Positions 883 to 51,006 of a DNA stretch of 64,000 nucleotides are shown one piece after another (the first letter of the stretch is position 1; each line of letters starts with the position of its first letter). The notes below the pieces were generated by a model, which ran no database searches, had not been told where the DNA came from, and was given only the letters and a program-made list of their open reading frames with translations. The translations under genes and the position numbers were made by a program. The DNA comes from Mytilisepta virgata (taxonomy: Eukaryota; Mollusca; Bivalvia; Mytilida; Mytilidae), in NCBI GenBank assembly GCA_028015205.1, contig CM051516.1, forward strand, positions 56,486,230 through 56,550,229. Direction: 5' to 3'.

Positions 883-1500
883 AGATTTCAAAGAATAATT
901 GACTAGACTACCGAAAAAAACTTCAGCGAAAATAAATATTTGCACACGTAAAATATAAATATATTCATTCTGTTGGCTATTAATGTTACATGTAGTATTA
1001 AATGTAAGTTTTTCTGTTTCTCTTAGACTGTGCTAGCAGTTCATACGAAAAGGAAAATAATAATTTTTAATTAATAGTTTGACATTATAGAATTTTCATT
1101 TTAATTTATTTTTCTCATTTTCAATTTATTTTTTTTTAATTTTAATTTTTGTAGTATACTTATTTTTTACTCAAAACTTATTTTCATAGATATATATTCT
1201 ACTTTTCTATAATTATTAAAGGTCACAATTAAAAGACTTTAAACATTCAAACAAAATCTCATATATAAAAAAAAATTAAATTAAAAGGAAATATCTATAT
1301 AAAAATAAGAAATTAATATATTATTTATTATCAATATACATACAAATACATAGACCCATTCTCAATATTAAAGCATATTACAACATCAATGTAGCAATTG
1401 AAAGTCAGTGAATTTTATTGCAATTGAAAAAATAAATAAAAATGAATATATATACATATTTTATTGATAATTAAATCAATAGAATTGGACAAAAGGCTAA

Positions 1501-1502
<2 letters not shown>
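883..1502. other. AT-rich intergenic stretch
   Basis: Very AT-rich, with A/T homopolymer runs. I see no gene or recognisable repeat. Confidence 0.5.

Positions 1503-1582
<80 letters not shown>
1503..1582. repeat. (AT)n microsatellite, 40 units
   Basis: An uninterrupted AT dinucleotide run of 80 bp. It produces an artefactual Tyr-Ile repeat open frame on the minus strand. Confidence 0.98.
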
Positions 1583-1586
<4 letters not shown>

Positions 1587-2149
1587 CCTCTCCTATACAT
1601 TACAAGATGGAACATCAGATAAAATTACAATCTTATAAAAATAGATTATTTAAATTTAAAACGTCATGAACGTGTTGCAGGTAGCATTGTGTCCTAATTC
1701 CATTTGACTAGGTTTATTTTAATATACTATTAAGTGGTTGTTATTTATATTCCGTCATTGTTTTAGCTATTATATAACGTTTAAAGATAAAAATATTGTA
1801 TTTGTAGAAAGGAGAACTTAAAATTTAAAATCTAGGATTGAATAGAAACCCTTATTATATCATTAATTAAAGAAAGATATATACAATTATGAAATAGAAG
1901 CCTTTGGGAGCTGGTGGGAGGGATCACAACATCTATATATATATAGCAAGTTAATTTAAAAATATATAATACATGTATATCATCAAATTACGTAATGTTG
2001 GCACATTTGCCTCAACGGTTTGAAATAGTATACACTCAATATCAATTAAACCTTTTAGTGGCATTAATGTATGCCAATACGGATCTGGTGATTTCTGCAT
2101 TTTAATCTGGAGCAAGATCGTATTACAACCAAGAATATTTTTAGTATCT
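1583..2149. other. Intergenic stretch, nothing recognised
   Basis: AT-rich, with no supported feature. Confidence 0.45.
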
Positions 2150-3312
2150 AAGAGTCAGCAGATTTTCTGAGGTCTAAAAATACCTGTACCCGTTGCAACA
2201 TATAATATGGACAAACCCAGACGTAACGAAACTTATCTTCTATTCCCTTTCGTCAGTTACACTGCTAGCTCTCCGATAGATGCGATTGAAATAAGTAATG
2301 TTTTAGATCACGTACATCATTACTAAGCTGACAATAAATAATATTAAGTTTCCGTGATCCTATTGTAAAATCATTCGGAGGCTTCTCTACATCTTGATTA
2401 AGTTTATTCTTCAACAAAGAAAGAAAGTTAATATTTTGAGTATCTACATCCAAATGATTCCATGCATCTAAGGCAATGTGAAAAAACTTTTTGTATGACT
2501 GTGTATGTGACAGTGGAACATTGAAAAATCCGTTCTTTCTACATTGTTCTAAGTGGATAGTTAAATATCATGGGGTAAAAAGTGGTCCGAAAAATAACTT
2601 GGAAGGCACCCATGCAGAGCATGGAAATCAACATCCTGTTTTCTAGTAAATAGCATGGACTTAGTTTTTGCAGAATTAAAGGTCACATCAGTTGTAGCCC
2701 TGACATGAAGTTCATTAAGATCATCATTTAGCGACTCTGCAGCTATTTCCTAGTCATCAATAACACCAAAGAGTAATGTATCATCAGCAAATAATTTAAT
2801 AATGTTAGAGACAACATCCACTATGCCATTAACAAACAAGAGAATCAAGTAAGGACATAAACTAAGAGCCCTGGGGCACTCTCGCATTTATTGTCTTCCA
2901 AGAGGAAAAATATCCATCCATCCAAACACTCTGTCTGCGATCAGATAGATAGCTTCTAAACCAATTCCATAAGTTTCCATTTATTCCATATTTTGGTAAC
3001 TTAAACAGTAGACCCTTATGTCATACCCTGTCAGAGGCCTTGGAGACATCAAAAAAAAATGAACCTAATATCCTTGCCAATGTCCAAATTTTACATAATG
3101 ACATCATAGATTACCAATAACTGATTGACCGTATAATCCTTGTGTCGGAAACCATACTGGTTATCAGTCAGACTGTTGTTTCGGAGGAGGTAGTTGAGAA
3201 GGTGTTTAAAAATAATTTTTTCCAACATCTTACTAAAAACAGCTGGTAACAGATATTGGTCTATCATTACAAATAGTCTCACTGCCACCCTTTCCTTTGT
3301 AAATTGCAGTAG
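2150..3312 (-). pseudogene. Degenerate LINE reverse transcriptase (3' part)
   Basis: Conceptual minus-strand translation gives pieces of a non-LTR reverse transcriptase in several frames. Around 3100-3310 there is an RT segment with FSKMLEKIIFKHL and YGFRH, the usual finger/palm entry. Around 2760-2830 a damaged catalytic box reads LADDTLLFG. At 2265-2453 there is the typical C-terminal stretch with GSRKLNIIYCQLSND. Many stops and frameshifts separate the pieces, so the copy is dead. It stops abruptly at about 3312, where plus-strand Penelope-like sequence begins, so one element has been cut by or joined to the other. The LINE clade was not determined; CR1/Jockey-like is a guess. Confidence 0.75.
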
Positions 3313-4745
3313 CATTGGCTAACTTCCAAAGTTCCATATTTAAAGACCCTAAGGTTGTTGAAAACTTCACTCGCCTCCATGACAAATATATAGTTGTCCC
3401 ACCTGACAAAGCCCCCAATAATATCGTTTTTGTCTGCAAGAACTATTATTTTGAGTGCCTTAGAAACGAATTGGGAATAGATAACACTGCGAGTAACCCA
3501 GCTTATACACCGACCACACTGACTAAGCAGAAAATCCTTGATAACCACAGGACCGTTCTTCATTCCTTTGGAATTCTACAAAGGGTGAAGAAATGGACCT
3601 TGCTGCTCTTTATTGGATTCATAAACTACATAAGAATCCGTTTAAACAAAGGTACATTGCTGGGTCAGTTAATTGCTCTACAAAATCTCTTTCAAAGATT
3701 TTAACATTCATATTGACATGTATTAAAGAGGGCCTTCAGAATTACTGTGAAACATCATATTCCAACAATGGCGTCAATCAAATGTGGATTCTTAAAAACT
3801 CCAAAAATTTACTACAATTTCTAAAATCAAAATCTTTGGCTACATGCAACAGCATAAAAACATTCGACTTCTCTACACTACCATACCACATCCTCAAATT
3901 AAAAGATCGCTGAAAGCAACTAGTTCATCACTGTTTTTTTTTTCAAGAAAAAATGGCACACGCAGGTATACATTTTTAGTTCTAGGTAGAGAAAAGGCTT
4001 ATTTCGTGTAGAACCACTCTGATTCTGACAAAAAGTATTCTAAAGATGAAATTACAAACATGTTAGATTTTCTCATAGACAACATATTCGTTGAATTTGG
4101 CGGTCTAATTTTTCAAGAAACAATGGGCATTCCAATGGGAACCAACTGTGCTCCTGTCCTCGTCGATCTATTTCTGTACTCAAATGAAGCGGACTTCATT
4201 CAAGGGTTACTACGTGAAAACAAAAAGAAACTAAATCCTTTAATTTCACTTTTCGTTATATAGATGACGTGTTGTCGTTAAATAACGACAAATTCCAAGA
4301 CTTTCTACATCTTATCTACCCAAGTGAGCTTGAAATTAAGGATACTACTGATACACCAAAGTCCGCTTCATATTTGGATTTTTTTCTTGAAATAGACTAT
4401 GAGTAACATTTGAAGACAAAACTTTATGACAAACTTGATGACTTCAACTTTCCTATTGTTAATTTTCCCTTCTTGAGTAGCAATATACCAGTATCGCCTG
4501 CATATGGCGTTTACGTTTCGCAGCTTATCCGATTTTCAATGGGATGCGTTAGTTACCCTGGCTTTCGACAAAGAGGACTACGGCTGTCACAAAAGCTTCT
4601 TAACCAGGGTTTTATCAGGGATAAGTTGATGTCATCATTTAGGACATTTTACGATCGTCATCACGAATTGATTGACCATTACAGTGTTCCAATATCTATG
4701 ATGATGTTGGACCTGTGCCCATTGTCGTAACTTTTCATGTGCCTC
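3313..4745 (+). pseudogene. Penelope-like element reverse transcriptase, fragment 1
   Basis: Four overlapping open pieces in different frames add up to one reverse transcriptase. They contain VVPPDKAPNNIVFVCK (about 3390), YWIHKLHKNPFKQRYIAGS (about 3605-3665), FDFSTL (motif A, about 3865), GIPMGTNCAP (motif B, about 4127), FRYIDDVLSLNN (catalytic motif C, 4251-4286), then SSNIPVSPAYGVYVSQLIR and FYDRHHELIDHY at the end. At least three frameshifts and several stops make it non-functional. The KLHKNP, GIPMG and YIDD combination is that of Penelope-like RTs common in bivalves; I saw no GIY-YIG endonuclease. RT identity is strong, superfamily assignment moderate. Confidence 0.72.
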
Positions 4746-14988: not shown

Positions 14989-15467
14989 GACGATTTTTAA
15001 TTTTGTCATTCTGGAATTATAGGACTTAGATTGTCTAAATATAAGCAATTTTTCACCTGTCGCTCACTAACCCGAATATGCCTTGACTAATTTCTTCAAA
15101 ATTTAACAAGTTATTACAATTCATGGTCTGAGGGTCTGTGAACTTTTTGACGATTTTCACTTTTGTCGTTCCAGAGTATTGGGGTTAGATTGTCCAATAA
15201 AAAACCCAATTGTTCATATGTCGCACACTAACTCGAGTACAACTTGACTGATTTTCTTCAAACTTTAACACATTATTAAAAATGGTAATTTGAGAGTCTG
15301 TATAATTTTTGAAGATTTTCACTTTTGTCGTTCCAGAATTATGGGACTTTAATAGATTGTCCAAATATAAGCAATTTTTCACATGTCGCCCACTAACTCC
15401 AGTACGGCTTGACTGATTTTTTTAAAACTTTTACACATTCTACAAATGGGGGTCTGAGGGTCTATAG
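14989..15467 (+). repeat. 161-bp tandem array (three units), host of a LINE insertion
   Basis: Three units start at 14989, 15149 and 15311 with the phrase GACGATTTTCACTTTTGTCG or a near variant. They share TTAGATTGTCCAAATATAAG and AAACTTTAACACATT-like blocks. The array is cut at 15467 by the LINE, and its next unit resumes at 22298-22375 beyond it. Confidence 0.8.
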
Positions 15468-15505
15468 AATAGAATAGAATAGAATAGAATAGAATAGAAT
15501 AGAAT
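15466..15505 (-). repeat. (AGAAT)n pentanucleotide tail of the LINE
   Basis: About eight AGAAT units on the plus strand, i.e. (ATTCT)n at the RNA 3' end of the minus-strand LINE. Short tandem 3' tails of this sort occur in I- and CR1-type LINEs. Confidence 0.9.
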
Positions 15506-15856
15506 ATTTTATTGACCAAATCAGGGCCCTCGAGGGGCAAATGGCAATACAATTATAATTTGACATATAAAATAAAATACGTAACATAACAATTACAGAA
15601 CAGCATTTAAGCATGAACTACAATAGTTCTATACATTATAATGGCATGTTTCACCAGTGATCCATAAAACCGCATAATTATATCAAGTTCAAATACAAAA
15701 AATATACTAGTATAATAGTAATGTGTATCGTCGAGGAAGCAGAGAACGAAGGATGAAGGATTTTAAAACATATACCAGAAATTAGGGAACTCTTATTCTC
15801 ATTGAGTGCACATTTGCATAATCTTAGCTAGCATAAACGGGCCAACAATAATATAA

Positions 15857-16148: not shown

Positions 16149-19100
16149 TCAGTCACATGTATCGTTTGAAACATTTTTGGTTTCATTTCTGGCTATATAT
16201 TGTGAGAGATTTAATAAGATTTGCACATTTTCACAGCACATCAGCCATTTAAGTTTATCTGTATTACAAAGATCATCAAATTTATCACAAGAATCTGAGA
16301 TTAATTGAAGAAGACGCTTTCTGTCTTCAAGGTGAGATGGACATGTGAAGAGAAAGTGAACTTCGTCCTCCACCTCGCCCGACGAACACTTTAAACAAAA
16401 CCTTTCACTACTTGCCACACCTGTATATCTACCTTGTTCTATCATAAGTTTATGTGATGACACCCTAAATTGTGTAATTTTTTTCCTGTCTGTAATTTTA
16501 TTAAGAAGTAAAAGGTATTTTTCAAACCCAAAATTGGTTTTAAATAAAGTATAAGTTCTTAATTTACCATCCGAACTATTTTTTAGATCTTTATGCCATT
16601 GATCCACATAGTAAGAAAGGACAATTTTATTGAGTTGCTTTCTAAAGCTATATTCGCTAAGAGTTGAAGGATTAACATTATTCAAATCAAGGGTTGTAAG
16701 AATTTGATTGATAGCTCCATACCAGGATGGTAGTTTGTTTTGAAATAATTGTTTAGAAGATAAATATGCATCATTTAGTAAAGGAAAAGAGGTACCAAGA
16801 TTCTCAAGTCTATGCCAGTATTTTAACATACTTTTGATAATATCAAAATGTAAAGGAAATCTACCAAGTTCAGATAATACTGCTAAATTGCTAGTTTTTT
16901 TTGTGTGTTCCAAGAATATATTTGCAAAATCTTATATGTAATTTCTCACATTGCGTATTAGAATATATTCTGTCGAATGGTATGATACCATTTCTAAAAC
17001 GAGCTGTTGTTGCATTGAATGTACCCCAGATTTCACATCCATATAAAAGAATTGGTTTTATTGTGTGATCAAAAACATGCAAAAAAGTTTTGACACTAGG
17101 ATTATGGGATAAAAAATCCTTACTTAATTTGAAGTAACCCTTAAGTGCTTTTTTATACAATTCGTCTTGAGCAAATGAAAATGAGCCAGATGCACTAAAG
17201 TAAAGCCCTAGATATTTGTATCTGTTAACACATTCAATATTGCTATCACATAAAGTAAAATTTTGAGAGAGATGTCGGCCTGCTTTGTTGAAAACCAAAA
17301 CTTTATTTTTTTTAGTATTTACATTTAAACACCAGTCCTTACAATAATTAGTTAATTTGTCCAGTCTTTTTTGTAGACCAGTAGCGGAATATGATAGGAT
17401 AATAACATCATCTGCATACATTAGACAGTTGACAGCACGATCATTTGTTCAATGGAATCTGAAAGACCGTCAAAGTATCTAGGGAGATCATTAATAAAAA
17501 TTTTGAATAGGTTGGGCTTAAATTGTCACCCTGTCTAACTCCTACTTTGTTATCAAACCATGATGTTCTTTTTTGACATATTCTTATACAAGATTTGCTG
17601 TTCGAATAAATGGCCTTTATGATTTTGTAAAATAACGATCCAACTCCTATGTCAAGGAGTTTAAGCTTGATTCCTGTATGTACAACGGTATCAAACGCTT
17701 TTTGAAAATCAACAAAGCAGGCAAACACCCTCCCACCTTTGTTATGACAATACTTGTTTATGATACATCTCAAGATAAACATATGATCAGATGTCCTTGC
17801 TTTTTTTGTAAAGCCGATTTGACATGGGTCTATAATTTTGTTTTTTTCTAAAAACTTACTTAGTCTTCTGTCTAGTATAGCATTAAATAATTTTCCCAGT
17901 GCACTTGTGATAGTAATACCTCTATAGTTATTTGGATCAGTTGGATCATTACCCTTGTGTAAAGTTACAATGTAACCTTCTGCCCATGCATCTGGATATA
18001 TACTAAGGGCTAAACATGCATTAAAAATATTGCATAAACTATGCAGTAAACTGGATTGACCATATTTTAACATATTGTTTGAAATGGTATCAAGTCCAGA
18101 AGCTTTATTGCATTTTAATTTTGCAATTGCCTCTGAGATCTCAGCTATATTTATCTTTATATCAAGTTCATTAAAGCATTTGAGCTTTTCTAAATTTTCC
18201 AGCGTCTTTCCTAATACTTTCAATCTCTCTGAGAACCTATCGTTTATACTTCCCAGGTTTTTAAAATGTGAGAACCATAACTCTGGATCAACCAACGAAC
18301 TTGGATCATCTTTTCGGTCCTCCCTAAGTTCATTTACTAAATTCCAATATTTTTTTGGATTGTCGTGGTGTAACTGATCAAGTTGTTGTATAATGGATTT
18401 TTTAAAAGATTTGAATTTAAATTTTCTCAGTTTGTTGTACTCTCTGTACAATTTGTAGTAGTGCCCTTTAATAATGGGATCTTTTGGATATTTAGAATAT
18501 ATTTTCCCATACTCTATAAGGTGTTTCCTCTTTTTTTTCAAATCAAAATCAAACCATGTTTTGTTTTTTGGTCCATTTTCCTTCCTAATTTTATTTTTTT
18601 TCAGTGATGCATTTGCAGCAGATAATAGAACATTGGTTAAATTGGTTGTTGCCTAATTGACATCATCAATGCATGCTAATTTGCTGTTATTAATTTCTAA
18701 AATTTTTGTCTGTAGTTCTGGTGTGAGTAATGCAGATTGAAATAAATACTCGGAACCATCTGACCATATGAAATCTTGCGACATATCAACCATAGACATC
18801 TGAGAAGCATTTGTATCACATACATCATAGTTAGCAGACATTACCCATTCTAACTTGCAATGACAATCTGACAATGTTGGAATAAAATTAGCAACATGAA
18901 AATATAATATTTGATTCATAATGTTCTGAGATACAATAACATAATCCACTGTACTTTCACCATTTGGTGTATAACATGACAAAGCACCAAACGAGTCACC
19001 AAATAATCTACCATTTAAGAGTCTCAATTGATGCCCAATGCACAGATCTGCAAGTTCTTTACCTCTAGTATCAGTGATTGTATCTTGACTAGCACGGTTA

Positions 19101-19703
19101 TTAATTTGTTGGTCAATTGGGTATGATTCAAACAATGGTGTATATTTGTTTGCATCCCCTTCTATAAAATCTAATTGGGTCCCAATTCTGGCATTAAAAT
19201 CGCCACAAAGTGTTACATTACCCATTTTTTTTATATTTTAATAAATCTTTTTCAATTTCTTGCAGCAAATCAAGATTGAGGCTTCTAGAATATGATGACC
19301 CGCTCGGTGGATTATATATTAAACAAATGTATAGATCACTGGTGAAACCAAAATATTTTTTTTCTAGCTTTACCCATTGATAATCAGGGTTACTGTTATC
19401 TAAAATTTTCACATGGGGTTTAATATGTTCTTTTCGAAGAATTGCCAATCCCCCAAAATATCTTTTATTTCCACGGGACATGTTCCTACTTATGGAATGA
19501 TAGAAAAAAGGGCCGACTTTTGCAAGTGACGGATCGTGGCCCATATGTGTTTCTGCTAAAAATACAATATCGAAATTTTCAATATTATCTAGGAAGAGTT
19601 TGTCCTCTAATTTGTTGTGGGCCCTAGATTTTAGTCCTCCAACATTCCAGAAACAAAATTTAATGGATTTGCACATCTTCGGTGCAGAAGGACTTTTACA
19701 CAT
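16149..19703 (-). pseudogene. LINE ORF2: endonuclease + reverse transcriptase, frameshifted
   Basis: The frame begins at an ATG at 19703 and shows APE endonuclease landmarks in order: FWNVGGL, LAETH, CLIYNPP, LCGDFNAR, STVDYV and SDCH. The RT follows with GYIVTLHKGNDPTDPNNYRG, motif A VDFQKAFDT, GVRQGDNLSP, and motif C YADD (about 17406-17417). A C-terminal Cys/His knuckle lies near 16380. Breaks: a +1 in an A8 run at about 19225, an in-frame TAG (probably from CAG) at 18653-18655, at least two shifts between 17540 and 17420, and a +1 in an A run at about 16905. Catalytic residues survive, so the copy is young but not translatable as it stands. Confidence 0.88.
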
Positions 19704-19735
19704 AATATTGTAACAATTGAAAAACTTATGAAAAA

Positions 19736-19837
19736 AGTAATAAAACTTTTAGACACAAATCTGATGTAAAATATGAGCAAAAGACTTTCTATAGAAAAAT
19801 AGTAATAAAACTTTTAGACACAAATCTGATGTAAAAT
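19736..19837 (-). repeat. 65-bp tandem duplication between LINE ORF1 and ORF2
   Basis: A 37-bp block beginning AGTAATAAAACTTTTAGACA occurs at 19736 and again at 19801. It sits in the 475-bp inter-ORF spacer. Confidence 0.8.
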
Positions 19838-20178
19838 AAAAAAAAAAGGACTTTTCTATTATTAAGTAAGCTTGTTACACTTATTGTTGCTGTGATATAA
19901 ATCAATCCAAGTAGTTAGATCAATGCGAAAAGTATCAAAAAGGGAAATAATTATCTTTTCAATATTCAAAGCTTCTGTTTAAGAATATAAATTTATAGCC
20001 AAAAATAAGAGAATACCTTTCCCTTACTATAATATTGAATGAAATGACACTTTTACGAGATTAAATCATAGATTAACAACAAATATCTAAATTCACAATC
20101 AGTAATAAACATTTGGCAATCAAAATAAACATTCTACACTACAAACAAAAATTCTTGAAGCACAGAATGCTATCATGG

Positions 20179-22173
20179 TTATTCGCCACCACGTCCACGT
20201 CCTCTCATATTGAATTTTCCGCGACCACGATTTGGTCCTCGTCTCATTCTTGAGCGACTTCTATCATTTCTGTGCATCGGAACGTCGAGAATCTGATGTA
20301 TTACTTTCTTTATATTACTGGCAAGTTGAAAGGTGCCTTTAGAATTTAAATGAAATCCGTCTCCTTCTAGAAGATCATCTATAGGATTTCCTCCATGACA
20401 CATGTTGCTGTGATCAGCAAATTTAACACGGTTTTCTTCGTTGTATTTTTGCTTTAACATTGCACTTATAATTTGCCCATTTGTATGGAACATATAGTTA
20501 TCTTTCCTCGGAGTTGGCAATGAAATTATACATACCGCTTTTTCCCACTTTTGATGTATGGTGGTCAAGATGTTTCCTATTTGATCGACACACGATTGTG
20601 GATCTACATTTCTCAGATCGTTAGTGAGAGAATGTAAGATGACTATATCAGGTTGGTCTGTCGAATCATTTATGTATTCATAGGTAGTGTTTAGTGTATA
20701 TTTAATTACTTTCTTCACCGAAGCGGCTGTTGTTAACTTTTCTTCATTGATTCCTTTTATGTTTGATGTTCCAATTAATAGCACAACTGGCTGTTTTGAG
20801 ATAGGATGTCGGCCATCGTATGTGGCCCTTTGTTCCTCCTGGAGACGTGCTGCATGTTCTTCCAGACGTAATGTATGCTCGTCATGTAGTTTTGATATTT
20901 GTAGTTTAAGTTCGATATTATCCTCCATACTTTTTTCCAACTGAGCAGTCAAATCTTGTATTTTTCTGTTAAGTTTATCTACTTCAGCATTTTTTTCGTC
21001 CAGTTGGTCAGTGTTGAACTTTAGTTCTGATGTTGATGAAGTAATGTATTGTCTTAGCTGCTCTCTGCTATTTTCAACCATTTGTTTTTCATGTTTAATC
21101 TGATTTTCGAGACTACTTGTTAGAGTCATGTGATTGTTCCTTTCAGTTTGTAGCTGAAATTCAAGAGCCTTTTTATCTGTTTTCAGTGATGAGATTTTAT
21201 CGTGTAGTTCACTCACATTTGATTTCTTTTTGTCATCTGATATTTGTTTGATAAGATCAATAATCAGTGTTTGACCAGCTTCAATTTTGTCAGTTAATGT
21301 TTTAGTATCTGTTGCCCTGTTAGTTTCCAGCTTGCGAACAGTATCTAGAATGTTATTCTCAAATATGGAGAAATTTTCAACTGTGAGTACTTTTTTTTCA
21401 TTGACACTTGGTTTTGCTGAGGCTTTGTTCGTCTGAACTGAACTATCAAATTGTTTAACATCTGTTGATCTTGTCTGATTTTTCGTGTGACTTTTATCCG
21501 TCTCGTTCGCAGGTTGTTTGAGTAGGGTTTCTTCGTCAAATGTTAATGAGTCAACTTCGTCTAATGTGCTAGAACTGGATGATTCGGATTCAGATTTTTC
21601 AGATTCATGTACTTGATTGGAGTTTACATCAATTTCTACTTTTTGCAACTTTTGTTGAGGAGCAATACCATCATATGGACCTGCCAAATTTGCGACAATT
21701 TGCAGCAGGCGCGGAAAATCCTCATTCAAGAACATTTCGTAGTGATTACCCTGACTTTGGATAAATCCAGTTTTGATGAAGAATGTCAATTTATATAGCA
21801 ATGGATTATCTTTCTGTTCAGTTGTTGAAACTTCTATAGTTACTGATTTCAATGGTTCGGTCTTAGATATGGTGTTAGGGCTGTCTTGCCAGTCAATATC
21901 TTTGTTTGGGCGTTTTCCTAAATATTCATAATAATATGCCCCGATGGCCTTTAACCAGGGAGTTATGCGCTCTTTCGAGGTTCTAAGCCCGACCATTCTG
22001 GCGCTTGCTTCATAGATTGCAGTATCAATCATTTCAAATTTACATTGTTTCGCTTTGGCTGTTGTTGGTTTGTTCAATTTTGGCGGGAGATATGCTTGTG
22101 GGTATAATTTTTCTGTTTTACCACTATTAATGTAATCCTGAATGTCTGGGTGATTTACATTGAAATTTGACAT
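20179..22173 (-). CDS. LINE ORF1 protein with coiled coil and SGNH esterase domain (664 aa)
   Basis: An intact ORF from ATG at 22173 to the stop at 20179. Residues 1-180 form an N-terminal region I do not recognise. Residues 185-260 are acidic and Ser-rich. Residues about 270-450 are a long coiled coil rich in Lys, Glu and Leu heptads. Residues 462-630 form an SGNH/GDSL hydrolase fold: LLIGTSN gives the nucleophile Ser470, LTND gives Asn518, and DGFHLN gives Asp605/His608. The tail (640-664) is an Arg-Gly-rich stretch expected to bind RNA. Esterase-type ORF1 proteins are known in CR1 and several other LINE clades, where they are thought to form RNP trimers and bind lipid or RNA. ORF2 downstream is broken. 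Confidence 0.9.
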   Translation of the reverse strand: MSNFNVNHPDIQDYINSGKTEKLYPQAYLPPKLNKPTTAKAKQCKFEMIDTAIYEASARMVGLRTSKERITPWLKAIGAYYYEYLGKRPNKDIDWQDSPNTISKTEPLKSVTIEVSTTEQKDNPLLYKLTFFIKTGFIQSQGNHYEMFLNEDFPRLLQIVANLAGPYDGIAPQQKLQKVEIDVNSNQVHESEKSESESSSSSTLDEVDSLTFDEETLLKQPANETDKSHTKNQTRSTDVKQFDSSVQTNKASAKPSVNEKKVLTVENFSIFENNILDTVRKLETNRATDTKTLTDKIEAGQTLIIDLIKQISDDKKKSNVSELHDKISSLKTDKKALEFQLQTERNNHMTLTSSLENQIKHEKQMVENSREQLRQYITSSTSELKFNTDQLDEKNAEVDKLNRKIQDLTAQLEKSMEDNIELKLQISKLHDEHTLRLEEHAARLQEEQRATYDGRHPISKQPVVLLIGTSNIKGINEEKLTTAASVKKVIKYTLNTTYEYINDSTDQPDIVILHSLTNDLRNVDPQSCVDQIGNILTTIHQKWEKAVCIISLPTPRKDNYMFHTNGQIISAMLKQKYNEENRVKFADHSNMCHGGNPIDDLLEGDGFHLNSKGTFQLASNIKKVIHQILDVPMHRNDRSRSRMRRGPNRGRGKFNMRGRGRGGE

Positions 22174-27920: not shown

Positions 27921-27975
27921 TTGATCACAACTGATGAGTCGTAAATCGACGAAATGTGCACGTGCTGTGCATCAA
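27921..27975 (+). ncRNA. Hammerhead-ribozyme-like motif, copy 2 (core intact, site lost)
   Basis: On the plus strand: stem I 5' strand TTGATCACAA (27921-27930), core CTGATGA (27931-27937), stem II GTCG-TAAAT-CGAC (27938-27950, four perfect pairs), GAAA (27951-27954), stem III, and 3' stem I strand CTGTGCATCAA ending 27975. All conserved core bases are present. The cleavage-site nucleotide at 27964 is G where A, C or T is required, and the first stem I pair is mismatched, so self-cleavage is not expected. Confidence 0.65.
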
Positions 27976-36165: not shown

Positions 36166-37255
36166 TACATATTGTTGAAGGAAAAAGCGAAAAGAAACGC
36201 TGTTCAGTAGCCTTTTGTTTTGCATTAATCCGACACACAGTGTTTATCTTATTGTATTTGTCACAATCATGTTCCTTGCTTTATCATATTGATTTATGCG
36301 CAGTTTGCCAAGATGGCGGGTATGTTTTTACTCAAGTATTGGAAAATTATATTGCAGTGTCCTCTGTTAATCTGTTTGTAAAATAAGAATTTTGTGCATT
36401 AAACCAAAACATCAAACAAGTTATGTTAGTTTTGTCGTCGTTTTGAATCTTTAACAGGCTACAATGTTACCTTACTGGAACTTCAAAATGAACACAATAG
36501 ACATTCAGGATAGTTTATACATATTCATATAATAGAAACCAAACCAAACCAAAACAATACTATTGTCTTTGATAAATCATGTTTATGTGTGAATTTATCA
36601 AACATCTCCTTTCTTACTTACCATATCAACGTATAGGTATTACTAAGTCTTAATTTGAAACATTTGCAAAGTCTGTTAGTATACTTCTTAGTGACAAATA
36701 TGGTTCCAAAAGATAAAACAAAATGTCATTTGAGTTTTCCAATTATGAAGGAAATTGACAGTATATATATTGGATTTCGCATAACCTACCAAAGTGTTAA
36801 AATAATGTTAAACGGATAAACATCCAGATGGTCATTTTGATATCTTTGAAATATAGTGGTTTAATGAAGACTTTTACCAACATTAGATGGATTTTATTCG
36901 GATTGAAATAAATTGTATACATATATGTCAGTGTTGAGGACAGATGTTTAAAACAAGCACATTCTGGCCTTGCGTTCTAAATATTGTACCATCCAACTTA
37001 ATTTTGCAGTGTTGTTTTTTGTCCGGGATTCTGTCTGGTGGGTGGCCTTTATTGATTGCTATATCATTGTTAACTTATCCTGAAATCCATTTTGTTGTTT
37101 ATTTAAATCTATCTGGACAGTTAGCGAACCTAGAAATAATATGAATCTTTCTTTTGAGTTAGAGAAGTAATTTATATTAAAAACTACTTTAGCTGAATAC
37201 TGATAAGTTTTTTTATTTGATTTTTTTTATCTTTATTAACCCTAAATGCAAAGGG
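36166..37255. other. Intergenic stretch with a weak repeat near 37001-37095
   Basis: The phrase around GTCCGGGATTCTGTCTGGTG resembles 41490-41580 (TTCGGGGTTTTGTCTGTTAG). This suggests a diverged dispersed repeat just outside the TTAA MITE. Otherwise nothing is seen. Confidence 0.4.
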
Positions 37256-37846
37256 AAATATCAGTTTGCGCCAGTTTGACGTCCTTTTGCGCCACAACTT
37301 AATTGCGCCAGTATATCAATTGCGCCAACATATTTTTTGAGAGGGTAAGATCATTTGCGCCAATAAATAATGAATCATATTGCGCCACTTATATTAATGT
37401 TTTAGGAAAATGAATTGAATTTTTGTAAATATTGAATTATTGACTCCCCTCCTCCTTTATCCGGGCTTGTGACCGGCAGTTTATTTTCACTGGCGGAGTT
37501 ACAGTCATTTTTTACTCTATTTTTTAATAAGTGAGAAATCAATTTAAAAGGGTATTTACAACATATTTAAAACTTAAACAGTTTTAAATTGCATATCAGT
37601 CTCAATTCAAATTAATGGCTGGAATTTGTAGCTCATCACGAACACGTACTCTTGTCGACTTAGTTCCCCGTCGGTATACTTGTAACATCCATGGTCAATG
37701 ATAAACTGAGAAGACTGATTTTATGAAATCTCAGTGAGCACTTTTTGTTTTCTTATCTTACCATGTGACATTACTTTTAATCTTTTCATTAATAAGTACC
37801 CTATACTTTCAACTTCTTTTATTCAGTAATAATTAATTTTGTTAGG

Positions 37847-37856
37847 GGGGGGGGGG
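37847..37856. repeat. Poly-G run
   Basis: A run of about ten G followed by TGTATTTCAC, inside the GCGCCA foldback element. Confidence 0.8.
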
Positions 37857-38069
37857 TGTATTTCACAAAAACTATTTACCACTGAATGTTTATTCACTGC
37901 AATTACATTGATCTTTTGGTGAACGTAAAAATCAGTACAGGTAAACTGGCGCAAATAAGTTCCGAAAACTGGCGCAATTCAAGCCACCAAAATACAAATA
38001 TGTGGCGCAATTGATACCTCCAAAATAACAATCCAAAGATACTAATATTAGATATAGTAAATTTATACT

Positions 38070-38116
38070 ATGCTGTATACGACGCATTTCAAGGAGTTAC
38101 CTCTCATCAGCAGCAT
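38070..38116 (-). ncRNA. Hammerhead ribozyme (type I layout), retrozyme unit 1
   Basis: Minus strand: stem I ATGCTG (38116-38111), core CTGATGA (38110-38104), stem II GAGG-TAACT-CCTT (38103-38091, with one G-U pair), GAAA (38090-38087), a short stem III with a three-base loop, cleavage triplet ATA (38078-38076), and stem I partner CAGCAT (38075-38070). The six stem I pairs are perfect, and every conserved hammerhead core base is present. Predicted cut: between 38076 and 38075. Confidence 0.8.
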
Positions 38117-38447
38117 TAAAACCGAAACATTTGGAAGACCAAAAACCAAACTTATATTAAACAAGAAGTACTCAACCAAAAATACCGAAATAGGAAGCCA
38201 AATTTCAACTAAGGAGATCTACCATGTGCAATACAAGGAATGAACCCTTAGTATTTCTATTATTTTTGAATTTTGCTAAATACTGGTAATTTCTGTAACA
38301 AATCAATGAATAATCATGTCAGACAAGTCTGACGACTGGGTTGGCGAATACCCTCGGGGACCTAGGGTCCACCAGCAGAGGCATCATCCCAGGAGTTTCA
38401 AAATAACAATCCAAAGATACTAATATTAGATATTGTAAATTTATACT

Positions 38448-38494
38448 ATGCTGTATACGACGCATTTCAAGGAGTTACCTCTCATCAGCAGCAT
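38448..38494 (-). ncRNA. Hammerhead ribozyme, retrozyme unit 2
   Basis: Core and stems are identical to the unit 1 ribozyme, offset by exactly 378 bp. Predicted cut: between 38454 and 38453. Confidence 0.8.
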
Positions 38495-38824
38495 TAAAAC
38501 CGAAACATTTGGAAGACCAAAAACCAAACTTATATTAAACAAGAAGTACTCAACCAAAACTACCGAAATAGGAAGCCAAATTTCAGCTAAGGAGATCTAC
38601 CATGTGCAATACAAGGAATGAACCCTTAGTATTTCTATTATTTTTGAATTTTGCTAAATACTGATAATTTCTGTAACAATCAATGAATAATCATGTCAGA
38701 CAAGTCTGACGACTGGGTTGGCGAATACCCTCGGGGACCTAGGGTCCACCAGCAGAGGCATCATCCCAGGAGTTTCAAAATAACAATCCAAAGATACTAA
38801 TATTAGATATAGTAAATTTAAACT

Positions 38825-38871
38825 ATGCTGTATACGACGCATTTCAAGGAGTTACCTCTCATCAGCAGCAT
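38825..38871 (-). ncRNA. Hammerhead ribozyme, retrozyme unit 3
   Basis: Core and stems are identical to the other two, offset by 377 bp from unit 2. Predicted cut: between 38831 and 38830. The repeat ends a few bases beyond its stem I, where the GCGCCA foldback sequence resumes. Confidence 0.8.
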
Positions 38872-38899
38872 TAAAATTATGCAATTGGCGCAAAAGGAC

Positions 38900-39565
38900 T
38901 CTTCCCAATGCAAACAATTTCAATCTATCAATTTATTGTTATAAAAACAAGAAATTAAAAGATACCAAATTTGGTGTGTACGATTGTTCTGTACTTAATG
39001 TCCTAATGTTTGCTTATATTTAAATGTCCTAAAAACAAATATGAAACCTTTTAGAACGGAAGGACCATTAAACAGATATAAATAACCTTTTGCATGTATA
39101 TATGCAACCTGATTTTGTATGTACATGTAAATTCCACAAAGCATGTCAATATAAGTTCATAATTCGGGTCACATGAAAATATATCGTCCTGAATTTAAGG
39201 GGGAATGCTTAAATTATCACGACTCTATGTACGGCAATACAGTTTTAAATTGGGACCAATTTTCAAAATCGGAAAAAATATAGAGCGGCTTTATCAGGCC
39301 ATTGTATTAGAGGTCGAATGGTTGAATCGACCAATGAGAATGACCGTTCCATTTCTTATTCATCGCAAACAGTTTTTCATATTATTGTGTCGAACATCCT
39401 TTCGCTAAGCTAAGTGTATTGCAGCGTGATACCGAAGTCAGTAATACCGAGCTCAAGGGTGACCTTAATTTAGCCAATCGCAATTGTGAAACATATATAG
39501 CTGACCTAAATCAGCTCGTCTCACCAGTATTTTTTTTATTATAGGATATATAATAATTATTTTTA
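38900..39565. other. Intergenic stretch, nothing recognised
   Basis: No supported gene or repeat. Confidence 0.4.
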
Positions 39566-45199: not shown

Positions 45200-46046
45200 T
45201 TGGTATTGCTGTAAGGGATGACAATTTTAACCTCCCTTCCATTTACTGGATACACAAACTTCTCATAAATGTCCATACAAATAAAGGTACACAGCAGGCT
45301 CTGCCAAATGCACTACTAAATGCCTTTCAAAATTCCTTACTATTTCAGCAGTAACGGACTGTCTCAATAGCTACTATGATAAGGCCTACTCAATTAGTGA
45401 TGTGAATCAGATGTGGATTCTAAAAAAGTCTAAAGACTTACAGGAATATTTCTCTTCAAGTGACCTTACCTATTGTAATAGCATAAAACTTCTGATTTTT
45501 CTACACTGTATACGGCTCTACCACATGATAAGCTAAAAACTGCTTTTGCTAAGGCATATCTGCGTAAACCTTTCTCTCTGGTATTATGTAAGGATAAGGC
45601 TTACTTTGTCAACAAACACTGATTCTAACAAAAATTACTCTGAGACTGATTTTGTGAACATGCTGAAATTTTTATCGACATCTTTCTAGAGTTTGGTGGA
45701 CAGGTTTGTCAATAGACGATCGGCATCCCAATGGTGATAAACTGTGCGCAGCTGTTGGCCTAAATTATTACTGAACCTGAATCTGGAAGAAAAGAAACTA
45801 GCCTAGTCCTTTAATTTCAGTTTCTGCTACATAGATGATGTTTTGTCACTTAATCATCCTTACGTTAAGAATCACCTTTATTTCATCTATCCCAGTGAAT
45901 TTTATATTAAAAAGACCACAGGCACACCAACGTCTGCTTCATATCTAGTTTTGTACTTGTACATAGATAAAAATGGGCGACTGGAATCAAAACTTTTTGA
46001 CAAACGTGATGATTTTAATTTTTTCCGATTGTGAACTTCTCCTTTC
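45200..46046 (+). pseudogene. Penelope-like RT, 5' half split by a minisatellite
   Basis: Conceptual translation in shifting frames gives FNLPSIYWIHKL, NALLNAFQNSLL, VNQMWILKKSK, a degraded GIPMG box, CYIDDVLSLNHP (YIDD at 45828-45839) and SASYL-like sequence. It ends with FPIVNFSFLSSNIPRSPA, exactly where the 29-bp array begins. Numerous stops and frameshifts. The remaining 3' part of the RT appears beyond the array at about 49057. Confidence 0.72.
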
Positions 46047-48755
46047 TTAGTAGTAACATACCAAGGTCTCCAGCCTTAGTAGTAACATACAAAGGTCTCC
46101 AGCCTTAGTAGTAACATACCAAGGTCTCCAGCCCTAGTAGTAACATACCAAGGTCTCCAGCCTTAGTAGTAACATACCAAGGTCTCCAGCCTTAGTAGTA
46201 ACATACCAAGGTCTCCAGTCTTTGTAGTAACATACCAAGGTCTCCAGCCTTAGTAGTAACATACCAAGGTCTCCAGCCTTAGTAGTAACATACCAAGGTC
46301 TCCAGCCTTTGTAGTAACATTCCAAGGTCTCCAGCCTTAGTAGTAACAAACATACCAAGGTCTCCAGCCTTAGTAGTAACATACCAAGGTCTCCAGCCTT
46401 AGTAGTAACATACCAAGGTCTCCAGCCTTTGTAGTAACATACCAAGGTCTCCAGCCTTAGTAGTAACATACCAAGGTCTCCAGCCCTAGTAGTAACATAC
46501 CAAGGTCTCCAGCCTTTGTAGTAACTTACCAAGGTCTCCAGCCTTAGTAGTAACATACCAAGGTCTCCAGCATTTGTAGTAACATACCAAGGTCTCCAGT
46601 CTTAGTAGTAACATACCAAGGTCTCCAGCCTTTGTAGTAACATACCAAGGTCTCCAGCCTTAGTAGTAACATACCAAGGTCTCCAGCCTTAGTAGTAACA
46701 TACCAAGGTCTCCAGCCTTTGTAGTAACATACCAAGGTCTCCAGCCTTAGTAGTAACAAACATACCAAGGTCTCCAGCCTTTGTAGTAACATACCAAGGT
46801 CTCCAGCCTTAGTAGTAACATACCAAGGTCTCCAGCCTTTGTAGTAACATACCAAGGTCTCCAGCCTTAGTAGTAACATACCAAGGTCTCCAGCCCTAGT
46901 AGTAACATACCAAGGTCTCCAGCCTTTGTAGTAACTTACCAAGGTCTCCAGCCTTAGTAGTAACATACCAAGGTCTCCAGCATTTGTAGTAACATACCAA
47001 GGTCTCCAGTCTTAGTAGTAACATACCAAGGTCTCCAGCCTTTGTAGTAACTTACCAAGGTCTCCAGCCTTAGTAGTAACATACCAAGGTCTCCAGCATT
47101 TGTAGTAACATACCAAGGTCTCCAGTCTTAGTAGTAACATACCAAGGTCTCCAGCCTTTGTAGTAACATACCAAGGTCTCCAGCCTTAGTAGTAACAAAC
47201 ATACCAAGGTCTCCAGCCTTAGTAGTAACATACCAAGGTCTCCAGCCTTAGTAGTAACATACCAAGGTCTCCAGCCTTAGTATTAACATACCAAGGTCTC
47301 CAGCCCTAGTAGTAACATACCAAAGTCTCCAGCCTTTGTAGTAACTTACCAAGGTCTCCAGCCTTAGTAGTAACATACCAAGGTCTCCAGCATTTGTAGT
47401 AACATACCAAGGTCTCCAGTCTTAGTAGTAACATACCAAGGTCTCCAGCCTTTGTAGTAACATACCAAGGTCTCCAGCCTTAGTAGTAACATACCAAGGT
47501 CTCCAGCCTTTGTAGTAACATACCAAGGTCTCCAGCCTTAGTAGTAACATACCAAGGTCTCCAGCCTTAGTAGTAACATACCAAGGTCTCCAGCCTTAGT
47601 AGTAACATACCAAGGTCTCCAGCCTTAGTAGTAACATACCAAGGTCTCCAGCCTTTGTAGTAACTTACCAAGGTCTCCAGCCTTAGTAGTAACATACCAA
47701 GGTCTCCAGCCTTAGTAGTAACATACCAAGGTCTCCAGCCTTTGGAGTAACTTACCAAGGTCTCCAGCTTTAGTAGTAACATGCCAATGTCTCCAGCCTT
47801 TGTAGTAACATACCAAGGTATCCAGCCTTAGTAGTAACATACCAAGGTATCCAGCCTTTGTAGTAACATACCAAGGTCTCCAGCCTTAGTAGTAACATAT
47901 CAAGGTCTCCAGCCTTAGTAGTAACATACCAAGGTCTCCAGCCTTAGTAGTAACATACCAAGGTTTCCAGCCTTTGTAGTAACTTACCAAGGTCTCCAGC
48001 CTTAGTAGTAACATACCAAGGTCTCCAGCCTTAGTAGTAACATACCAAGGTCTCCAGCCTTTGTAGTAACTTACCAAGGTCTCCAGCCTTAGTAGTAACA
48101 TACCAAGGTCTCCAGCCTTTGTAGTAACATACCAAGGTATCCAGCCTTAGTAGTAACATACCAAGGTCTCCAGCCTTTGTAGTAACATACCAAGGTCTCC
48201 AGCCTTAGTAGTAACATACCAAGGTCTCCAGCCTTAGTAGTAACATACCAAGGTCTCCAGCCTTTGTAGTAACTTACCAAGGTCTCCAGCCTTAGTAGTA
48301 ACATACCAAGGTCTCCAGCCTTTGTAGTAACATACCAAGGTATCCAGCCTTAGTAGTAACATACCAAGGTATCCAGCCTTTGTAGTAACATACCAAGGTC
48401 TCCAGCCTTAGTAGTAACATATCAAGGTCTCCAGCCTTAGTAGTAACATACCAAGGTCTCCAGCCTTAGTAGTAACATACCAAGGTTTCCAGCCTTTGTA
48501 GTAACTTACCAAGGTCTCCAGCCTTAGTAGTAACATACCAAGGTCTCCAGCCTTAGTAGTAACATACCAAGGTCTCCAGCCTTTGTAGTAACTTACCAAG
48601 GTCTCCAGCCTTAGTAGTAACATACCAAGGTCTCCAGCCTTTGTAGTAACATACCAAGGTATCCAGCCTTAGTAGTAACATACCAAGGTATCCAGCCTTG
48701 GTAGTAACATACCAAGGTATCCAGCCTTAGTAGTAACATATCAAGGTCTCCATCC
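46047..48755. repeat. 29-bp minisatellite, 93 units, born from the Penelope-like RT frame
   Basis: Units start TTAGTAGTAACATACCAAGG and end TCTCCAGCC (29 bp). The 2709-bp span equals exactly 93 units of 29 bp plus three 4-bp AACA insertions (near 46346, 46755 and 47195). Common variants are TTAG/TTTG at the start, ACATA/ACTTA, and GGTCTCC/GGTATCC. Read with the upstream RT, the first unit encodes LSSNIPRSPA. This is the segment that follows NFPF in the intact family (fragment 1 has SSNIPVSPAYGVY at about 4480). Because 29 is not a multiple of three, minus-strand frames stay open for long distances; those open frames are not genes. Confidence 0.95.
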
Positions 48756-49290
48756 TTTGAGGTGTACATTTCACAGTAGACTATTTACTGCCGCATATGT
48801 GATATATACGGTGCCTTTGTGGCTTTGTTTAGTTTGTTGAATTCTCTTGACTTTGTCTTTTCCTTTGATTTCGAATGTATGGACTTTTCTCACTGTTTTG
48901 TGGCTTAAGTTTTCTCTTGCCGATATGTAGTAACATACCAAGGTCTCCAGTCTTTGAGGTGTACATTTCACAGTAGATTATTTACTGCCGCATATGTGAT
49001 ATATACGGCGCCTTTCTCGGCAGAGTTATGTTCAGTCTCTCTTAATTTCATCACTCCAAAAGTTTTACGATCGTGGTCACGAATTGATTGCCCGATACGA
49101 CGCTCCTATCTAACGTATAAGATTAAATATCTTCAGTTAGATTTCACGTCCTTCTGGAATTGACACCTCACAGGACTTGACACTTAACTGCTTTTACTCA
49201 ATGGTGCCGTTAACGGAACGGGAAATGCTTACCCTTTTCGGAGCACCTAATGTCACTCTCGGTTTTAAATGGGTGTTCACATTTCTTGTG
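48756..49290 (+). pseudogene. Penelope-like RT 3' end beyond the minisatellite, rearranged
   Basis: After the array a 55-bp block (starting GTGTACATTTCACAGTAG) occurs twice, at about 48768 and 48960, with a lone satellite unit at 48929-48951 between them. The RT resumes at 49057 with a frame reading KFYDRGHELIARYDAPI. It is followed at about 49210-49290 by the family's 3' end (GCTTACCCTTTTCGGAGCAC). A block around 48820-48927 is duplicated at 49355-49465. Confidence 0.6.
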
Positions 49291-50489: not shown

Positions 50490-51006
50490 AATTTAAATCT
50501 TTGAAAATAATATTAAAAATTATCCAAGCGTTGAATAAAAATACAAAAATGACTAAAAGGGTCAAAATCATCTAATGAAAGAACCACACACGAGGAAGAT
50601 ATTCCCTAGTTCCCTCATGGACTTATTCCATCAGCAGAGGTAATAATAACTTCTATGATACCAGTTTTAATGCACAAAATGTGTATTTATGTTCGAATTA
50701 TATTACTTATATACGATATAAGCTGTACATGTAGGTATTACAGTTGTGTTACAGAGTTCTTGCACTCAGCATTATATTTGATTATTGTACGTTTTGATGA
50801 ACATAGCGAAGAGGAATTTAGATTATGTATACATATTTTATGTTTCAAATTTGGATACACTTGGCGAAATATGATTGTTAATTTTTAGCTAATCGCTTGT
50901 TACTATCTGTATCTGAAATATAAGATTAAAGAAAGCGTAAATTGTAACCTGAATCATTAATTCATAAGTTATACATATATACAATTTTGTTCGTTTCTAT
51001 TTCAAC

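Follow-up and report, generated by a model that had tools for sequence, protein, structure and literature searches.

A hammerhead retrozyme of Mytilisepta virgata that probably uses a reverse-transcription start shared with Penelope-like elements

The window analyzed here, a 64,000-nt stretch of contig CM051516.1 from the bivalve Mytilisepta virgata (assembly GCA_028015205.1, positions 56,486,230 to 56,550,229), carries a tandem hammerhead array lying inside a DNA transposon that we call TW (Table 1). The array has its RNA 5′ end near 38876 and its RNA 3′ end near 38025-38021, and the twister-P1 ribozyme of TW lies on the same minus strand as the hammerheads. Elsewhere in the window, a broken LINE (16149-22173, minus strand) comprises a GDSL-type ORF1 and pieces of an endonuclease and a reverse transcriptase, with an (ATTCT)n tail at 15464-15506, and a 29-bp tandem repeat (93 copies, 93% matches) occupies 46046-48757 within a GC-richer stretch.

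Table 1. Positions in the window of the retrozyme insertion, its host transposon and the Penelope-like (PLE) probe
Feature	Position	Strand	Basis or remark
Host DNA transposon TW, split by the retrozyme	37253..38906		GGGAA...TTCCC ends; end coordinates by counting
TW left target duplication AATGCAAA, 8 bp	37245..37252		
TW right target duplication AATGCAAA, 8 bp	38907..38914		
Twister-P1 ribozyme inside TW	37443..37505	-	Rfam scan
Retrozyme insertion, 2.26 units	38021..38876	-	Repeat array and empty site in other TW copies
Hammerhead 1	38825..38871	-	First base after cut 38830
Hammerhead 2	38448..38494	-	First base after cut 38453
Hammerhead 3	38070..38116	-	First base after cut 38075
Predicted PLE-type tail hairpin, copy 1 (unit 69-107)	38724..38762	-	Coordinates by counting; putative reverse-transcription start upstream, ~38780
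Predicted PLE-type tail hairpin, copy 2	38347..38385	-	Coordinates by counting; putative reverse-transcription start ~38403
RNA 3′ end of the window insertion (unit 51-55)	38021..38025	-	End region common to 36/37 insertions
Fragment read as Penelope-like ORF, probe for genome PLEs	3315..3704	+	No Pfam match

A preliminary description of this DNA had claimed three identical type I hammerheads on the minus strand, spaced one repeat unit apart. All three were found with the same letters over the whole motif; the coordinates and cut positions assigned to them were correct, and the spacings measured 378 and 377 bp. Each copy reads ATGCTG-CTGATGA-GAGG/TAACT/CCTT-GAAA-TGCGTCGTATA-CAGCAT, which gives a stem I of 6 bp, a stem II of 4 bp including one G.U pair, and a stem III of A-U, U-A, G.U and C-G with a GUC loop; the cut follows, after ATA. 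The covariance-model search suggested in that description returned no Rfam hammerhead family at E <= 10 (37200-39400) or E <= 5 (whole window), and the predicted hammerhead fold was not the minimum-energy structure (-7.8 vs -12.6 kcal/mol), so that the case for cleavage comes from the hammerhead core and its conservation.

Two 479-bp stretches of the array offset by one unit were 98.5% identical, no open frame of 110 aa or more lay within the array, and the GC content of the majority unit was 36%. The tandem non-coding unit, the type I hammerhead, the absence of LTRs, the dispersed copies and the almost unmutated ribozyme bear out the earlier reading and support, from sequence features, an assignment to the metazoan non-LTR retrozymes. 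The near-identity of the monomers had further been taken to suggest recent activity; the units of the window copy do differ, however, and it is not the youngest, as an array of 17.5 units shows zero unit-to-unit substitutions at scored positions. Another repeat family, likewise dispersed, has a hammerhead-like core and occurs at 27931 (+), 5529 (-), 50507 (-) and 63667 (-) in the window and at position 4584 of locus L058. Its core reads CTGATGAGTCGTAAATCGACGAAA in the copy at 27931 and is decayed in the others, stem I pairs poorly, and the likeness between copies ends near TTGGTATAGAAGAATT.

The subterminal repeats of TW are TTGCGCCA on one side and TGGCGCAA on the opposite side. At the position of the window array, most of 14 other TW copies read uninterrupted through ...ACCTCCAAAAATATGCAATTGG... 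with small differences (L038 is incomplete there), and the retrozyme is therefore an insertion into TW whose empty site is known. Exact 8-bp target duplications were recognized by eye in 10 of 13 TW copies with both ends; counting L009 and L015 as one copy, given their common flanks, makes this 9 of 12. The twister-P1 match scored 67.1 bits against a gathering score of 67.2 (E 4.7e-13 for the whole window), and 13 of the 15 distinct TW copies compared, all of them chosen by their twister, have it at offset 206-212. At least 61 twister-P1 matches were found in the genome, some of them in other contexts. A self-cleaving ribozyme inside a transposon of the cut-and-paste type was unexpected, and none of the titles listed in a literature search was about this combination.

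We then consider the retrozyme family across the genome (1.03 Gb, 109 contigs). The window array gave at least 91 matches at no fewer than 36 distinct loci (36 of 1298 candidates scored), and the hammerhead was identical in 129 of 132 complete copies from 21 arrays (substitutions only, indels dropped). Tandem copies with a conserved ribozyme thus occur elsewhere in the genome, and the number of matches together with the retention of the motif argues against a chance origin of the hammerheads. Insertion ends were surveyed at 36 loci, comprising the window, 20 whole arrays and 15 arrays represented by pairs of ends, with unit positions numbered from the hammerhead cut in the RNA sense. The 3′ ends of 35 of these 36 arrays fell at unit 51-60, that is, 51-60 nt past the ribozyme cut, where the letters are GTTA and then T's from unit 51; the exceptional array (L085/L086) ended at unit 97, about 45 nt further on. 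The 5′ ends were scattered from unit 10 to 367, with weak clusters near unit 251-256 and 333-335. A Rayleigh test indicated concentration of the 3′ ends (p ~4e-16) and none of the 5′ ends (p ~0.6).

A retrozyme fragment of 0.27 unit (L036), found by chance, had the same 3′ end (unit 51 by eye, 58 by BLAST), bringing the common end to 36 of 37 insertions. Selection of loci by their match to a 2.27-unit query may favor the common 3′ end in short arrays; the 21 whole arrays span 2.3 to 17.5 units, and 11 of them, with at least 3.3 units and thus matchable whatever their end, likewise stop there. As the hammerhead cut is not the insertion end, a simple cleaved linear monomer is excluded as the template. 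Pol III termination was considered as a cause of the common 3′ end and rejected, other TTTTT runs in the unit having no clustered ends.

The Penelope-like probe from the window (3315-3704) gave at least 150 genome matches (150 scored, out of 4593 candidates); many of them share a single score, and their open frames reach 1062 aa. The copy at L095 is an intact-looking candidate PLE of this genome, with an open frame at 900-4085 and pseudo-LTRs at 655-1007 and 4001-4353. Pfam matches to GIY-YIG (aa 197-247) and RVT_1 (aa 700-916) in this frame were both weak and below the curated cut-offs, and a CxC motif lies between them. No hammerhead core (CTGANGA followed by GAAA) was found in the L095 pseudo-LTR, so the hammerhead of the retrozyme came from elsewhere. 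PLEs with an N-terminal GIY-YIG, the 'Naiad' type, were reportedly described by Craig et al. in 2021, and Naiads are not known to have a hammerhead in the pseudo-LTR. L095 resembles a Naiad in its GIY-YIG ahead of RVT_1, the CxC between them and the hammerhead-less pseudo-LTR, a likeness read from one full copy with Pfam scores below cut-offs.

Retrozyme unit 45-106 aligned with L095:998-1060 at 49 of 63 positions with one gap (49.7 bits), whereas the best of 300 dinucleotide-shuffled units reached 36.8 bits against L095. In 265 kb of other sequence from the same genome, no better retrozyme match was found except the L036 retrozyme fragment; the next best, L079, scored 35.4 bits and has a similar tail-like motif. 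The 63-nt shared block spans the common 3′ end of the retrozyme. At L095 and 20 other PLE copies, TTTGTCC is followed by a T-run and unique flank, with the exit 3-9 nt after TTTGTCC in 21 of 21 (by eye); five further PLE ends in the retrieved loci agree, one of them reading TTTGTCT. All 26 inspected PLE 3′ ends therefore lie just past TTTGTC(C/T) and a short T-run, and in the alignment the ends of retrozyme and PLE coincide, give or take a few nucleotides. By analogy with the anole PLE discussed below, this place may be an internal PLE start site. Among matches outside the inspected set, those at L055 and in the L049 5′ flank stop at query 69-72 and that at L090 at 48; at three further PLE loci (L116-L118), inspected for the tails of additional PLE families, no tail was found.

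Downstream of the end, the retrozyme and PLE tails have the same predicted dot-bracket hairpin (-17.0 and -17.9 kcal/mol). Three pairs of the stem differ and all keep pairing, one through a compensatory C-G/A-U double change. In a longer context, fold stability relative to shuffles gave z -2.16 for the PLE and z -0.56 for the retrozyme; as the latter is no stabler than its shuffles, the retrozyme hairpin rests on the comparison rather than on energy alone. Since the retrozyme and L095 tails are only 78% identical, a closer PLE family may be the real helper. Old tail-like motifs were also seen at window position 50643 (-) and at L079:405-460 (CCTCTGCTG.TGGA...TCC..GAGGG and a relative), and are perhaps relics of other PLE families.

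We next examined target sites. Paralogous empty sites were available for L041, L045, L046, L051, L069, L071 and the window copy; we left out four more alignments across junctions (L052 and L081, diverged; L073, simple repeat; L088, matching its own 3′ side). Read individually, the seven sites showed no deletion above ~5 bp and no duplication above 6 bp. The insertion point was A/TTT or similar in six and G/CTTG in L045, the T-run of the element blurring the end, and one or two extra bases occurred at the junction in L045 and the window copy. Across 35 arrays, the longest flank match averaged 3.31 nt against 3.06 nt in mismatched pairs, with a maximum of 6 bp, and retrozyme insertions thus have no regular target duplication above chance in this set. 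The AT content of the 20-nt flanks (69% and 66%) was not clearly enriched over that of 200-nt flanks (67%). What looked like long target duplications at L045, L046 and L052 we take to be tandem repeats in the target DNA. The arrays at L039 and L041 lie near copies of one repeat, and L039 holds the empty version of the L041 target.

Substitutions in the 21 arrays were classified at positions with at least three units: 60 were fixed in all units of an array, 24 private and 8 intermediate, or 60, 14 and 8 after masking letters beside array ends, which are probably flank. Counting only the 12 arrays that contain three or more full units (94 in all) gave 47 fixed, 6 private and 5 intermediate, whereas 1000 shuffles of units between these arrays gave means of 0.6, 120 and 93, with a maximum of 8 fixed. 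The units of one array are mostly alike, as if copied from one circular monomer, and repeated copying of one circle would explain the fixed variants. In the array at L048 (G000:C10:45207052-45216052), two variants recur with a period of five units and form a higher-order repeat; some arrays therefore also grew at the DNA level.

The common 3′ end, the scattered 5′ ends, the one-monomer arrays, the empty sites and the PLE-shared hairpin beside the same end are all read from the genome; from them we infer the circle as template, the enzyme, its binding to the hairpin and its priming. The retrozyme quite probably depends on a PLE, with the hammerhead making circles and the PLE reverse transcriptase starting at a borrowed signal and running round. 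Monomers that the hammerhead releases from an array transcript would circularize, giving rings of ~378 nt. The PLE reverse transcriptase would bind the hairpin at unit 69-107 that retrozyme and PLE have in common. Synthesis would begin within the RNA, at the U-run near unit 51-55, with the A-rich 3′ end of a nicked target as primer. The enzyme would then circle the RNA one or more times and halt at an arbitrary point, and the cDNA product would be joined to the target without a regular target duplication.

A close counterpart is the anole PLE Poseidon PAc, of which we draw on part of the published account (Frangieh et al. 2024, PMC11167929). There, reverse transcription begins internally at two adjacent sites downstream of the hammerhead, genomic copies end at these start sites, some with a tail of 30-40 bp, and the protein cuts AT-rich DNA, mostly at 5′-ATT-3′. 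The retrozyme has the same layout of hammerhead, ~51 nt, U-run and predicted hairpin, and is likewise found with its 3′ end at an internal site downstream of the hammerhead; AT-rich targets are reported for PAc. The optional PAc tail may be compared with the single retrozyme array that ends ~45 nt further. The distance from the hammerhead cut to the start is 85-92 nt in PAc (by subtraction) and would be ~51-60 nt in the retrozyme. Unlike the retrozyme, PAc is autonomous, with a C-terminal endonuclease (PMC11167929).

Circles are perhaps not required, since in the same account unprocessed RNA was the main template of the anole PLE in vitro, hammerhead cleavage was dispensable and PLE copies are tandem (PMC11167929). 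Linear multi-unit transcripts that escaped hammerhead cutting could then be copied by the PLE enzyme, a common internal start with 5′ truncation requiring only a multimer. We regard this as unlikely: a mutation newly arisen in one unit of a linear template would be confined to that unit, but 60 substitutions are shared by every unit of their array, compared with 8 intermediate ones; up to 17.5 units would need copying past intact ribozymes; and the conservation of the hammerhead would be left unexplained. Satellite growth at the DNA level, or rolling-circle DNA transposition (Helitron or IS91-like) with an incidental hammerhead, would fit one variable end, the lack of target duplications above chance and the five-unit repeat of L048. 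It is nevertheless very improbable, as unequal exchange would produce intermediate variants and the 0.27-unit single copy ends at the same 3′ position as the arrays. Helitrons, moreover, end in CTRR at their 3′ side, unlike the retrozyme end of GTTA and T's at unit 51, which coincides with PLE copy ends. Mobilization by a LINE such as the one in this window, which has ORF1, endonuclease and reverse-transcriptase pieces, deserves hardly any credence: target-primed reverse transcription by LINEs also fixes 3′ ends, but their insertions often carry longer target duplications, of which none above chance is seen here, the (ATTCT)n end of this LINE, the sole one compared, is unlike that of the retrozyme, and it is to the PLE that the 3′ region of the retrozyme shows its match.

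We also located variants along the unit. Arrays differ from one another hardly at all in the hairpin and the hammerhead: of 37 distinct between-array variants, none fell in the 50-nt hammerhead and two in the 59 nt of start and tail (unit 88 and 89, in the uppermost pair of the hairpin and its loop), while 7 were in the 45 nt between cut and start and 28 in the 224 nt elsewhere. Two of 37 in the hammerhead plus tail (109 of 378 nt) corresponds to a binomial p = 4e-4, with variants treated as independent. Changes unfixed within arrays, by comparison, fell there in 9 of 29 cases after masking (Fisher p = 0.008 vs between-array variants) and in 16 of 39 without masking (Fisher p = 3e-4). Because between-array variants avoid the hammerhead and tail and unfixed changes do not, these regions seem to matter more for making new copies than for resident copies.

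In the part of the Mytilus galloprovincialis account considered here, ~5000 type I hammerheads are described, usually in ~350-390 bp repeats, with circular RNA seen by northern blot (PMC7229834). By description, the present family resembles those non-LTR retrozymes in its tandem type I hammerhead repeats, low GC, absence of LTRs and many copies (PMC7229834). The common 3′ end, one-monomer arrays and PLE-shared tail do not appear in the passages of that account consulted. Cervera and de la Pena (2020) proposed LINEs or PLEs as retrozyme helpers, with PLEs a strong candidate on account of shared hammerheads, tandem copies and co-occurrence (PMC7229834). The family differs from plant-type LTR retrozymes in having no regular target duplications (35 arrays; longest flank match 6 bp). 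SINEs borrow the 3′ tail of a LINE, and the retrozyme would be like them a non-coding parasite with the reverse-transcription signal of its helper; unlike in SINEs, the signal would belong to a circular RNA and lie largely downstream of the point where copying starts, and the ribozyme would be part of the cycle.

Mussel retrozymes and the proposal of a PLE helper are already known from the literature consulted in part, which names PLEs only as likely helpers in the return of animal retrozymes to DNA, and the new part is the mechanistic link to the PLE. Among the titles and abstract openings listed, none reports a start signal common to retrozymes and PLEs or an insertion end that retrozyme copies share. 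With somewhat less assurance than for this family, we favor the view that retrozymes in general are circular parasites of PLEs, including hammerhead-less PLEs. On this view the ribozyme would serve to give the template no end, and the PLE enzyme, starting from a hairpin taken over from a PLE, would reverse transcribe it by target-primed rolling-circle synthesis. The shared hairpin and common 3′ end would point to a specific helper class, place the start site with a precision of a few nucleotides and assign a function to the hammerhead. If true, these retrozymes would show that in nature a reverse transcriptase can travel round a circular RNA at a DNA target.
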